A stretch of 64,000 bases of DNA from Crocinitomicaceae bacterium (GTDB lineage Bacteria; Bacteroidota; Bacteroidia; Flavobacteriales_D; Crocinitomicaceae): positions 62,001 through 126,000 of the forward strand of contig JAQWFQ010000012.1 in the NCBI GenBank assembly GCA_029238665.1. Direction: 5' to 3'. Under the pieces are notes generated by a model. That model made no database searches, had not been told where the DNA came from, and saw only the letters and a list, made by a program, of their open reading frames with translations. The position numbers and the translations under genes are program-made. Below, piece after piece: positions 49,706-53,794 of the stretch (position 1 is its first letter; every line of letters begins with the position of its first letter).

Positions 49706-50455
49706 ATGAAGCTACTACTGAATAAGACCGACTATATTGATACTGATCAACCCATAGATCTTTCAATCCCACTATCGAATACGGATAAAAATCCAAAAGC
49801 ATGGTATGTGACCCCTCCTGTTTTTGAACCTGTAAGGACAGCGCATTATACAGGGTCAGTAGCCGAGGGAGGAAGTGTGAATTTTAGAGATATTTTTTTT
49901 AACCCTCACGGGCATGGAACACACACAGAATGCTTGGGGCATATCACTAAAGAGGTTCATTCAATAAACAAAAGCTTAACCACGTTCTTTTTTACGGCTA
50001 ATGTGGTAAGCATTAATCCAATAGAGCAGGAGAATAGAGATGGTACCATAGATCGTGTCATAACGCCTGACTTAATTGACTCTAATTCACTGACTACTGA
50101 AGCATTAATTATTCGGACGCTACCAAATATTTCCAGTAAGAAGACGATGAATTATTCATCTACAAACCCCATTTATTTTGATGTGGCTTGTGCGCAAAAA
50201 ATGATTGCAGCAGGCATTAAGCACCTGCTAATTGATTTACCATCTGTAGACCGTGAAAGTGATGGCGGTGAGCTGGCCTTTCACCATGCATTTTGGGAGG
50301 TGCCTGAAAACCCAAATTTTGAGAGAACAATTACAGAGTTGATTTTCGTTGACGATTGTGTGGCCGATGGAAAGTACATTTTGAATTTTCAAGTAGCGCC
50401 TTTTGAGAATGATGCCTCGCCAAGCCGACCAGTACTGTATTTAATACAACAGTAG
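49706..50455 (+). CDS. Cyclase-family (kynurenine-formamidase-like) metal hydrolase
   Basis: A 249-residue protein of the cyclase family (PF04199). The metal-binding motif HGHGTHTECLGHI (near residue 69) corresponds to HxGTHxDxPxH, with Glu/Cys variants. Family members include bacterial kynurenine formamidase and isatin hydrolase. The ALDH8-like gene at 11186 hints at a kynurenine route in this genome, but the genes are far apart and the link is weak. A 7-of-8 -7 box, TATCTTCG at 49691-49698, precedes the ATG. Confidence 0.75.
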   Translation: MKLLLNKTDYIDTDQPIDLSIPLSNTDKNPKAWYVTPPVFEPVRTAHYTGSVAEGGSVNFRDIFFNPHGHGTHTECLGHITKEVHSINKSLTTFFFTANVVSINPIEQENRDGTIDRVITPDLIDSNSLTTEALIIRTLPNISSKKTMNYSSTNPIYFDVACAQKMIAAGIKHLLIDLPSVDRESDGGELAFHHAFWEVPENPNFERTITELIFVDDCVADGKYILNFQVAPFENDASPSRPVLYLIQQ

Positions 50456-50467
50456 CATCGCTTAAAC

Positions 50468-50498
50468 AAAAAAGAGCTGACAAGGTCAACTCTTTTTT
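50468..50498. terminator. Intrinsic terminator after the cyclase-family gene
   Basis: AAAAAAGAGCTGAC-AAG-GTCAACTCTTTTTT (one C-A mismatch) lies 13 bp after the stop codon. It could also end a minus-strand transcript from the inverted repeat at 50557-50737. Confidence 0.82.
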
Positions 50499-50556
50499 AA
50501 TAGTGGATAGTAATGGTTTATTATTTCTTACAATAAATTTTTATCTAAGTAAGACA

Positions 50557-50737
50557 GAAATAAAATATCAGGAACCTTCTTAACATCTGTGATAGACACA
50601 ACTTTAAGTTTTGAAGGATTAAGAACTGTTATACTCTTTAATCAAACTAGAAAATGAAACTGCCTCTCCAAGCAGTGTTATCCTTCAAAATTTCAAAGCT
50701 AAACGTTAAGGAAACTTCCTGATATTCACTTTATTTC
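50557..50737. ncRNA. Candidate structured RNA with a 6S-like long hairpin
   Basis: The 380-bp gap 50456-50835 has no gene but holds a 181-bp nested inverted repeat. Outer arms 50557-50584 and 50705-50737 pair as 8 bp (GAAATAAA), a 4-nt bulge, 10 bp (ATATCAGGAA), a 5/6-nt internal loop and 5 bp (TTAAC). An asymmetric bubble follows (17 nt against 6 nt). The inner arms then pair 4 bp (CTTT), a 3/4-nt loop and 11 bp (TTTTGAAGGAT with ATCCTTCAAAA at 50609-50619/50680-50690). The 60-nt apex contains two small hairpins, one with arms ACTGC/GCAGT at 50659-50676. Length and stem-bubble-stem layout resemble 6S RNA; on the minus strand TATTTTTC (50744-50751) could be its -7 box. Strand and identity are unproven; a decayed palindromic element is the alternative. 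Confidence 0.42.
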
Positions 50738-50835
50738 CTAGTAGAAAAATACGGATTTTAAATTGATAGTTTACTACCTAATGAATATTCAACGGGATTT
50801 AATGAACATTAGCTAGGCAATATTTATTTTTAAGG

Positions 50836-51579
50836 TTAGAGGTTCTCTAAGCGCTTAAAAAATAAGTCTCTTTTGGCTGGAGATAAAGGAACTTCAGAGC
50901 CATCTTTCATTACCACAGCGCCGCCATTCTTCTTGTCATAACGGTCTACATAGTCAATGTTTACAAGGTGTGACTGCTGAATGCGCAAGAAATTATGTGC
51001 AGACAATAGCGTTTCATATTCCTTTAAAGTTTTAGAAACAAGAATTCGTTTGTTATCGAGTAAAAAGAAAGAAGTGTAGTTTCGGTCTGCTTCACAACGA
51101 ATGATTTGATCGAGTTCAACAACATGAACACTCTCTTGTGTTTTCAAAACCAATCTTCTTTTTTCTGAAGGTTGAATGTTTTTATGAAGCGCATCAAACT
51201 GAGAAGGTTCAGGGCGCTCATCGAGTGTAACTAATGCCCTTTCTAAAGCAGACCTTAACTCGGTGGTGTCTACAGGTTTTAACAAGTAATCTAAGGCGCT
51301 AAACTTAATTGCTTTAATGGCGAACTCTTCATGCGCAGTTATAAATATAACTTCGAATGTTTTATTCGGAATAGAGGTTAATACATCAAACCCTGTTCCG
51401 TCAGGCATCTGAATGTCTAAGAAAACGATATCGGGATTGTGTTTATTGATCGCTTCAATTCCAGACTGAACATTTTCACCCTCAGGAATTGTCTCAACAT
51501 TTAAACCAAAAGACTCAATCATTTTAGCAATGAGCTGTCTTGTTCTGTTTTCGTCGTCAATTATTAGTATTTTTTTCAT
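50836..51579 (-). CDS. LytTR-type response regulator
   Basis: A 247-residue regulator with a receiver domain (acidic D8-D9, phosphoacceptor D55 in FLDIQMPDG, K101 in LLKPVDT) and a LytTR DNA-binding domain (CEADRNYTSFFLLDNKRILV, then FLRIQQSHLVNIDYVDRY). ATG 51579 is 4 bp after the sensor kinase stop; the longer frame overlaps that gene. The pair forms a two-component system; targets unknown. Confidence 0.92.
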   Translation of the reverse strand: MKKILIIDDENRTRQLIAKMIESFGLNVETIPEGENVQSGIEAINKHNPDIVFLDIQMPDGTGFDVLTSIPNKTFEVIFITAHEEFAIKAIKFSALDYLLKPVDTTELRSALERALVTLDERPEPSQFDALHKNIQPSEKRRLVLKTQESVHVVELDQIIRCEADRNYTSFFLLDNKRILVSKTLKEYETLLSAHNFLRIQQSHLVNIDYVDRYDKKNGGAVVMKDGSEVPLSPAKRDLFFKRLENL

Positions 51580-51583
51580 AAGC

Positions 51584-53794
51584 CTAGCTTGGTTTACTAT
51601 GTGCGATTGCATAAGGTAACGAAATTAATATTTTTGTTCCGGTTTCCAACTCCTCATTGTAATCATTCACCAGCAAAGATCCATTGGTTTTGTGCTTTTT
51701 GTTCAAGTTTTTAATTCGCTTGCGCGTTATGTCCATTGCCATACTTTTGTGAGCAGAGCTTTTCTCTTTTTCTTTTGATTCCTTTCTCCCTATGCCATTA
51801 TCTATAATAGAAATGATTAGCATATTATTTTCTTTACTGAACTTAACTTTGATAAACCCGCCTTCAATGGTGTGTAATTGGCCATGTTCAATTGCATTTT
51901 CAATAAAAGGTTGTGTAATCATAGGAGGAATAATTGTATTCTCATCGAAGAGAATTTCTTCCGCAATAATGTCAAATTCAAAGCGATCTTCGAAACGCAA
52001 TTTTTGCATTTCTAAATACTTTTGTAGAATTTCAATTTCGGTATTGATTAAGATATGATCCTTTGGCGAGTTTTCTAAAATTAGCCGCATTAATCGAGAA
52101 AAATTAACTAAAAATCGAGAAGATTTGTCCGTGTCATTATCGTAGATATAGCTTTGAATTACAGACATTGCATTAAAAATGAAATGCGGATTCATTTGAG
52201 TCCGAAGTAATGTTTGTGACATTTCGGCTTCGCGGCGTTGTTGCTTTATTTTAGTTTGATTCCAACGGTAAAATAGGATGATACCTGCTAGAACAACAAT
52301 AATCAAAAAAGCAAAGAGGATATACCGTTGAAAATTGTTCCTCAATTGGCTGTTTTCCAGTTTTGTTGCGCTTAAATTTTGCTCTTGTTGGTGCCTTTGA
52401 ATGGAGTCAGATTGTAAATGGATTAAACGTTCACGTTGTTCAGATCGATACGACTCGCTTAGTTCAGCAATTTTTGTGGCAGATTGTAATATTGTGTTAC
52501 TGTCCAGGTAGTTTAAATATAACTCCATGTACTCCAAGGACTTTTTGGTGTTGTGTACATCTTTGTATACATCTGCTATGGTTCTATAAGTCTGGTAAAT
52601 TTGATTTTGTGCTCTGTACTGCATAGAGCGATTTAAATAGTTTAATGCATTTGTATACTTACCCTGCTCCTTAAAAACAGTCCCAACATTGTGATAAACA
52701 CCAGCTATTTTTTCTTTGTTATTTGTAGACTCAAAATAAACGAGAGCTTTGTTAAAATTACTTGATGCCAGGTTGTACACCTTTTGTTCTTTGTAAACCA
52801 TCCCAAGAATATTATGCGTTTCCCCCAAACTATTTAAGTCGTTTAAACTTGTTAAATACTTGATAGAAAGAGTAGCATTTTTAATTGCACTTGAAAAATC
52901 ATTCCGATCTAACTGAACAGAGGCAAGGTGCGTAAGCGCCAATGCCATTTGGCGTTTATCATGAATTTTCCGCGCATAGTTAAGCGATCTTCGGAAATAG
53001 TATTCGGCATCATCTAAGTTGGAAATTAATTTTTGTGATTGTCCAATTTCACGGGTGTATTTGGCGAGTAAATAAATATTATGTGCCTCTTCAGCCATCT
53101 GCAAACTAATCAAGTTTTTGGCAACACTTAGTTCAATTTGTCCAAAAAAACTATAGGTTTCTGCCTGCGTGTTAAAAGCTTGTGAAAGAACAGACTTATC
53201 TTTAACTCTACGGGCAGACTTAATCGCCATGTTTGAATAGTACATAGCAGAATCTTTTTGATTGGAGATCATAAAATTCTTAGAAAGAAATATATATGCT
53301 TCAGAAATTCTTTCGTGATCCATTGTTTCTCGAGCAAGCTTAATAGATAGGTTTAAATAGAAGTTAGCGGTTTCAATTTCTTGCATACTACTGTGGTAGT
53401 ATCCTAGATGCCTGTAAATTTTAAAGTGCTCTGAATTAGAATTCAATTTATTTAAAAAGGTTTTACACGAAAGAATAGTGTTAAAATAGTCCTCTTGATT
53501 CCCTGTTTTTTGTGCAATTTCTGCACTGTAAAAAAGCGCATTAAATTGAATAGAATCTTCAAGGTTTAAGCTTGCATTTAAGATGACCTTTCGAATAGAA
53601 TCTGCTTTAGTAATGTTGTTGACCTTGTAGTATTCCCCAAGCGTCATTAAACGAGTAAACTTCTTTTTAGGATTAGGTGCAGCGCGGTATGATTTAATTA
53701 AACTGTCCTCATCATTTTGCCCATAAGTGGAGACAGAAGTGCCAATCATAAAGAGAAGCAGGGGAAGAAAACAAGTTAATTTTAAACGGATCAT
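51584..53794 (-). CDS. TPR-containing LytS-type sensor histidine kinase
   Basis: A 736-residue kinase. It has a signal peptide or N-terminal helix, a TPR array over about residues 85-420 (repeated YYF..SL.YA/A pattern), a coiled linker, one membrane helix (YILFAFLIIVVLAGIILFY near 490), and a His_kinase domain with H537 in QMNPHFIFNAMS followed by a GHKL ATPase (IIDNGIGRKESKEK). The TPRs probably face the periplasm or an associated protein. Partner of the LytTR regulator downstream. Confidence 0.92.
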   Translation of the reverse strand: MIRLKLTCFLPLLLFMIGTSVSTYGQNDEDSLIKSYRAAPNPKKKFTRLMTLGEYYKVNNITKADSIRKVILNASLNLEDSIQFNALFYSAEIAQKTGNQEDYFNTILSCKTFLNKLNSNSEHFKIYRHLGYYHSSMQEIETANFYLNLSIKLARETMDHERISEAYIFLSKNFMISNQKDSAMYYSNMAIKSARRVKDKSVLSQAFNTQAETYSFFGQIELSVAKNLISLQMAEEAHNIYLLAKYTREIGQSQKLISNLDDAEYYFRRSLNYARKIHDKRQMALALTHLASVQLDRNDFSSAIKNATLSIKYLTSLNDLNSLGETHNILGMVYKEQKVYNLASSNFNKALVYFESTNNKEKIAGVYHNVGTVFKEQGKYTNALNYLNRSMQYRAQNQIYQTYRTIADVYKDVHNTKKSLEYMELYLNYLDSNTILQSATKIAELSESYRSEQRERLIHLQSDSIQRHQQEQNLSATKLENSQLRNNFQRYILFAFLIIVVLAGIILFYRWNQTKIKQQRREAEMSQTLLRTQMNPHFIFNAMSVIQSYIYDNDTDKSSRFLVNFSRLMRLILENSPKDHILINTEIEILQKYLEMQKLRFEDRFEFDIIAEEILFDENTIIPPMITQPFIENAIEHGQLHTIEGGFIKVKFSKENNMLIISIIDNGIGRKESKEKEKSSAHKSMAMDITRKRIKNLNKKHKTNGSLLVNDYNEELETGTKILISLPYAIAHSKPS

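Follow-up and report, generated by a model that had tools for sequence, protein, structure and literature searches.

What does the imperfect palindrome encode that lies at positions 50557-50737 of the window, i.e., of the stretch of 64,000 nucleotides from a Crocinitomicaceae bacterium analysed here, and is it the 6S RNA for which an earlier note had taken it? The palindrome is present and, as judged from Pfam domains, sits between a gene of the cyclase family and a LytTR regulator gene as described; it lacks a coding frame, with no overlapping open reading frame of at least 50 amino acids. Also its arms go beyond chance, since for positions 50550-50745 both strands fold far below shuffled sequences, the plus strand with -46.5 kcal/mol (z = -4.77) and the minus strand with -58.1 kcal/mol (z = -4.98), and in neither case was any of 200 dinucleotide shuffles as good. 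The palindrome is the single match in its own genome, which argues against the mobile palindromic element that the earlier note had kept in mind; paralogue searches in the same genome gave noise-level matches only (E of 7.04 and 9.24), the family genomes listed contain one or two covariance-model matches each at E ≤ 0.01, and a pattern search of viral contigs gave no match. It seems likely that the palindrome makes up the body of a small regulatory RNA from Crocinitomicaceae that had not been listed before, and this RNA does not look like 6S RNA. With a probability of roughly three in four, we read it as a stand-alone regulatory RNA without Rfam family, encoded on the minus strand and activated by a LytTR regulator, and with a core that would act in trans (Table 1).

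Table 1. Predicted RNA gene, its putative control region and neighbouring genes (positions in the window).
Feature	Position	Strand	Basis and remarks
Sensor histidine kinase with TPR repeats (His_kinase PF06580, HATPase_c)	51584..53794	-	ORF, Pfam; probably pairs with the LytTR regulator
LytTR response regulator (Response_reg PF00072 + LytTR PF04397)	50836..51612	-	ORF, Pfam; directly upstream of the RNA gene, same strand
Distal putative operator half-site TGTTCAT	50802..50808	-	21 bp from the proximal half-site
Proximal putative operator half-site TATTCAT	50781..50787	-	Pattern match
-7 promoter box TATTTTTC, consensus TAnnTTTG	50744..50751	-	Sequence match
Predicted RNA gene of about 270 nt, from leader GGAAATAAAG to terminator hairpin	50467..50738	-	Predicted from the -7 box, the leader and the terminator hairpin
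P1 closing stem, 5' side with leader	50711..50738	-	Fold; letters beside CAGG and CCTG change jointly in relatives
P1 closing stem, 3' side	50558..50585	-	Fold; arm listing of relatives
P2 helix, 5' side TTTTGAAGGAT	50680..50690	-	Covariation, arm-swap control
P2 helix, 3' side ATCCTTCAAAA	50609..50619	-	Covariation, arm-swap control
Nearly invariant apical core: hairpin CTGC-TTGGAGAG-GCAG, exposed TTTCATTTTCTAGTTTGATTA, hairpin AAGAG..TTCTT	50620..50675	-	Alignments; single-strandedness inferred from folds
Terminator-like hairpin with U run	50467..50499	-	Fold; possibly shared with the convergent cyclase gene
Convergent Cyclase-family gene (PF04199)	49706..50455	+	ORF, Pfam; conserved neighbour

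Relatives share one order of signals on the minus strand, consisting of the LytTR gene (where adjacent), TRTTCAT repeats, the -7 box, the leader GAAATAAGGAGA and the closing stem CAGG...CCTG, followed by P2, the core, the return strands, a U-rich tail and a terminator, and this common order, found among 104 related loci, supports an RNA gene on the minus strand that is structured and apparently does not code for protein. The control site at 50781-50808 and the regulator gene are situated outside the coordinates of the palindrome. A structured RNA had been proposed that starts near the right end of the palindrome and measures about 180 nt; a start there, at about 50738, is kept, while the RNA gene probably extends beyond the palindrome, with about 270 nt, and the presumed full unit of 275 nt folds with z = -6.65. 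Near that right end the predicted promoter box is found, at 50751-50744 on the minus strand, its fit, formerly given as seven of eight letters, being five of the six fixed letters of TAnnTTTG, the -7 consensus as it appears in the accessible part of PMC9723704. In relatives, matches to this box cluster 13-15 nt before the leader, and sequence signals for a promoter and a terminator of its own (-7 box, leader, terminator) are present; a scan for sigma-70 promoters showed no excess (3 vs 2.0 expected). A terminator follows downstream in 90 of 91 loci vs 6 of 91 after shuffling that preserves base composition only. The terminator scan of the window does not list the hairpin 50499-50467, the U run of which lies inside the stem, and it lists the core hairpin as terminator-like, so that early termination is possible. 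The window leader, which starts from 50738 and reads GGAAATAAAGTGAA, deviates from that of the relatives. As a separate observation, GAAATAAGGAGA, the leader found in relatives, looks like a strong Shine-Dalgarno sequence with no conserved start codon behind it, from which the window leader (50738-50724) deviates, and many of 40 printed tails between closing stem and terminator carry ACTACT or TTACTACT motifs. That the core might be a coding sequence was rejected, as alignments show internal indels and no start codon in common.

BLASTN searches of 99 genomes with the 181 bp detect the element at E ≤ 1e-19 in 30 of 33 relatives of the same genus and at E ≤ 1e-13 in five further genera of the family (G042, G043, G046, G048, and G054), many other listed matches being at chance level; positions 62-142 of the query are conserved best. 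The core pattern occurs in 100 stretches from named genomes, and the titles among the 80 listed include Fluviicola, Taishania, and Crocinitomicaceae MAGs, Fluviicola and Taishania being members of the Crocinitomicaceae, Flavobacteriales; by these titles, the family examined here is taken to be the Crocinitomicaceae. Some titles among these matches look mislabelled: locus L069 (CP034120.1), titled Glaciecola amylolytica, which is a gammaproteobacterial name, carries the RNA together with its LytTR gene, and either title or genome is apparently misassigned. The 104 related loci studied comprise these 100 (80 with titles) and four from whole genomes, and two of them (L043 and L092) stem from one and the same genome. 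A covariance model of core and P2 matches in 147 of 240 family genomes, distributed over 8 of 24 genera, and order-wide the same model matches in 133 of 399 genomes, all 133 within this family. Such a distribution is unlike that of a housekeeping RNA, although diverged forms of the RNA exist below the model threshold.

Among 20 stretches 3' of LytTR genes, one of these diverged forms without model match (L231) keeps TTTCATTTTCTAGTTTGATT and has lost the GGAGAG loop, two others (L243 and L244) keep the hairpin and TTTTCTAGTTT and have lost P1, and in a fourth (L237) leader and hairpin are kept; L232 has a long CAGGTTAA...TTAACCTG hairpin and otherwise shares little. No RNA was recognised in the rest of the 20, four of which come from genomes with the RNA elsewhere, and genome G006 is not assessable, as only 26 nt follow the LytTR gene on its contig. 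Genus g22 has two or three tandem copies of the RNA, spaced by about 300 nt in most cases, and five of the seven tandem loci retrieved include a weaker third copy. In L186, L187, L190, L191, and L192, every close copy carries a TRTTCAT half-site together with a box and a leader; of the weaker copies, those in L186 and L190 are devoid of the half-site and have an altered hairpin, whereas that in L191 retains both half-site and leader.

The earlier note had suggested looking for compensatory changes in relatives, and in P2 the arms do covary: their sequences differ among relatives and their complementarity is kept. In an arm-swap test, the mean P2 helix score was 6.63 compared with 4.64 for swapped arms (standard deviation 0.15, maximum 5.09, 300 shuffles). 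This sample comprised 87 of the 104 loci with 70 distinct arm pairs; L086, L103, L119, and L126 were excluded by hand and further loci because their ends are missing, and for L002 the 5' anchor was placed manually. In 76 distinct rows, P2 has 146 cells changed on both sides vs 48.9 in shuffles (0 of 500 as high), spread over five of five pairs, although the mere count of P2 pairs with any such change, five, is not above shuffles (mean 4.8; 406 of 500). The score of the 17-pair model is 0.281 vs 0.107 in shuffles (0 of 500) and at most 0.070 in slid versions, which preserve the relatedness of the rows. The alignment employed (A6; 98 of 104 loci) was fitted to the covariance model and therefore leans towards it, and model R1 had been built from 17 rows picked because their P2 helix was clear and their linkers were similar in length. 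Within the core, the first hairpin lacks covariation, being invariant except for one pair, and the other two helices align poorly to the model. A MAFFT alignment (A2) analysed with RNAalifold gave only 18 pairs, three of them changed on both sides, the variable stems being misaligned by MAFFT. The model of the RNA fold thus seems to be supported by covariation in P2 and by folding in the remaining stems.

With regard to control of the RNA, 93 of 95 loci show a proximal TRTTCAT half-site 48 to 52 nt ahead of the leader, and 79 of 95 show a second one 21 bp further upstream. Among 355 control windows, taken 300-750 bp further upstream and mostly inside genes, the corresponding place holds a half-site in six, and the 21-bp pair occurs in none. 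The 95 loci are those with a recognisable leader and enough upstream DNA, so the conservation of the leader among them is partly by construction; the operator was no selection criterion, and the window's own locus is outside this set as it fails the leader pattern. The proximal site T[AG]TTCAT is preceded by A in 82 of 93 loci and followed by T in 84 of 93, its first six letters being fixed by the pattern. By its letters, a TRTTCAT pair at 21 bp is arranged in the manner of LytTR sites: the two repeats bound by LytTR regulators measure 9-11 nt, with a gap of 11-13 nt, according to the available text of PMC4847170, or 9 bp at a distance of 10-13 bp according to that of PMC11347149. A strict operator pattern occurs at two places in the own genome, the RNA locus and L167, and in 34 genomes of the genus at 92 places vs 24 for the reversed pattern, with matches in 30 of the 34 genomes; most operator-pattern sites are therefore not at the RNA, and of 30 places retrieved several lie before unrelated genes or within genes. 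At L167 (G000:C18:22832-22859), the operator-like pair is located 78 nt before a gene with a secreted-looking product. Another locus, L150 (G028:C10:61353-61402), shows three TRTTCAT repeats about 21 bp apart just 5' of a gene that, judged by eye, resembles that for a primary sigma factor.

In 57 of 90 loci with at least 1200 nt of upstream sequence, the gene immediately before the RNA encodes a LytTR homolog, and the TPR kinase gene precedes it in 41 of the 42 LytTR-adjacent loci with enough upstream DNA. In the other 33 of the 90 loci the LytTR gene is not adjacent, and control there would have to be in trans. The convergent cyclase gene is found behind the RNA in 67 of 89 loci and is kept in 29 of 37 where the LytTR gene is not adjacent, indicating the same locus even with the regulator elsewhere. 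When the lists were compared by eye, 142 of the 147 RNA-positive family genomes had a LytTR match at E ≤ 1e-60; the five without (G112, G191, G214, G223, and G232) are 76-86% complete, and the match in G206 is merely a weaker one (1.9e-64). On the other side, of 212 LytTR-positive family genomes (E ≤ 1e-60), 70 have no RNA match, about 34 of these 70 with a close LytTR match (E < 1e-92), and some LytTR-positive genomes without model match carry diverged RNAs. These patterns of letters and neighbourhood suggest that the RNA is probably switched on by the adjacent two-component regulator.

6S RNA binds RNA polymerase and templates pRNA, and its hallmark is a conserved central bubble between two long helices imitating an open promoter. 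A diverged 6S RNA, the rod of which would mimic the open promoter and trap RNA polymerase, would fit the length, the rod with paired ends, and the single copy in the own genome, where with two Rfam models no other 6S RNA is found above cut-off. However, no 6S family is detected at the locus by the covariance-model check with Rfam at E up to 10, neither RF00013 nor RF01685 reaching its gathering score, and Rfam 15 holds no family matching the RNA. The 6S-Flavo model (RF01685) reached its cut-off in none of 20 genomes, its sensitivity in this order being uncalibrated; weak matches occur in 12 of the 20 genomes, and the five in the own genome are all on contigs other than that of the window. RF00013 does not match anywhere in the own genome; among 14 control genomes it matches in 8, in four of them above cut-off. 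The stem-bubble-stem order on which the 6S proposal had been founded is not conserved, as some relatives (L048, L057, L058, L096, L117, and L121) lack the middle arms and the apex is nearly invariant; the conserved letters are apical, and no conserved central bubble between two long helices is seen. A LytTR-type operator in front of the RNA, model matches in only 8 of 24 family genera, and tandem copies in one genus also speak against 6S RNA, an identity that we now consider very improbable. Just as improbable seems the view that the kinase-LytTR operon merely ends in this structure, as a 3' tail or as an element for processing or termination. It would agree with a position just 3' of the LytTR gene on the same strand in the 57 adjacent loci and with the terminator-like score of the core hairpin, but the LytTR gene is separated from the RNA by operator and -7 box, RNA and operator are retained where the LytTR gene is not adjacent, and the RNA has a separate terminator.

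For the LytTR-activated regulatory RNA, the following course of events may be envisaged. The phosphorylated LytTR regulator, together with the TPR histidine kinase, would bind the two TRTTCAT repeats 21 bp apart and activate the TAnnTTTG-type promoter; the resulting RNA of about 270 nt would fold into a long rod, in which variable stems present the nearly invariant core of about 55 nt. After transcription, this core would work in trans, most likely through pairing of the exposed UUUCAUUUUCUAGUUUGAUU with mRNAs as targets; that it binds a protein instead is less likely. Pairing with mRNA is preferred by analogy, although one target test was negative, and capture of a protein or of ribosomes ranks second. 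A target site complementary to the exposed stretch would read ACTAGAAAATGAAA and include a start codon. The sequence CTAGAAAATGA is not enriched at plausible gene starts, being found there at 2 of 25 places outside the RNA (L258 and L260) vs 3 of 30 for the control GATCAAAATGA, in a test that is rough since CTAGAAAATGA has an in-frame TAG before ATG and the control has none. These numbers derive from 53 places of CTAGAAAATGA in 9 of 11 genus genomes, 30 of which were retrieved, and from 119 places of the control, 30 retrieved; one CTAGAAAATGA place (L270) is not the RNA, which that genome has elsewhere. At L258 (G000:C15:275231), in the own genome, a gene encodes a protein of 272 amino acids with a signal-peptide-like start, and its gene start CTAGAAAATGAAA is perfectly complementary to the exposed core; it is a single, weak lead to a target. 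The gene at L260 is presumably serC.

Known RNAs such as CsrB and RsmZ sequester the protein CsrA, and it is conceivable, if doubtful, that a LytTR-induced sponge exists here, in which the invariant core with its GGAGAG loop and the Shine-Dalgarno-like leader would sequester an RNA-binding protein or a ribosomal subunit. The very high conservation of the folded core, the tandem copies, the GGAGA in hairpin loop and leader of relatives, and the lack of enrichment of the antisense site tested are in line with it. On the other hand, PF02599, the CsrA family, has no match in the own genome and matches in 3 of 14 control genomes, and L231 is without the GGAGAG loop yet keeps the exposed stretch. 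A strict CsrA sponge of the CsrB/RsmZ type is out, as the own genome has no CsrA. That we deal with a new class of structured RNA of the Bacteroidota, with the rigid core and not the antisense stretch as its working part, is likewise a tentative idea and rather unlikely.

Regulatory RNAs controlled by two-component systems are well known in Firmicutes and Proteobacteria; FasA of group A Streptococcus carries a LytTR domain, RNAIII of Staphylococcus is about 514 nt long, 6S-Flavo has the shape of a rod, and to our knowledge no sequence or structure relation exists between FasX and the Crocinitomicaceae RNA. For the LytTR-activated RNA, the nearest known design in our comparison seems to be fasBCA-FasX, followed by agr-RNAIII. 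As far as the accessible part of PMC12675982 describes it, fasBCA-FasX likewise combines sensor, regulator, and small RNA gene in one locus, and FasA is called ComE-like there. It differs in belonging to another phylum and in having two kinase genes, compared with one here. At agr P3, a regulatory RNA has two direct repeats immediately before its promoter, to which the LytTR regulator AgrA binds (PMC4227749, in its accessible part). It differs in that RNAIII encodes delta-haemolysin and agr has divergent promoters. YpdA/YpdB of E. coli is also a LytS/LytTR pair, and the operator is a direct repeat of GGCATTTCAT, 21 bp from start to start in the oligonucleotide printed in the available section of PMC4847170. 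The YpdB repeat contains TTCAT and is close to the TRTTCAT at 21 bp found here, but the target promoter studied is that of yhjX, a protein gene and not an RNA. 6S-Flavo (RF01685) shares with our RNA its occurrence in Bacteroidetes (PMC2864571, as partly accessible) and differs by a model of 108 positions without covariance-model match here. Of the features of a LytTR-controlled RNA, both the paired direct repeats upstream of the promoter, at the level of sequence, and the LytTR gene adjoining the RNA gene are found in the window. Among the papers listed in literature searches, in which subscription journals were mostly outside coverage, there was no description of this RNA, of another regulatory RNA under two-component control in Crocinitomicaceae, or of a LytTR-driven RNA in Bacteroidetes.

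If the capture of a protein or of ribosomal subunits were true, a two-component system would flood the cell with an RNA that captures them through its GGAGA loop and leader, in bacteria that scarcely use Shine-Dalgarno signals, and the diverged tandem paralogues would be spare or retargeted versions. For the LytTR-activated regulatory RNA, the meaning for the family is that an RNA without Rfam match, occurring in 147 of its 240 genomes examined, arrives together with a probable switch.
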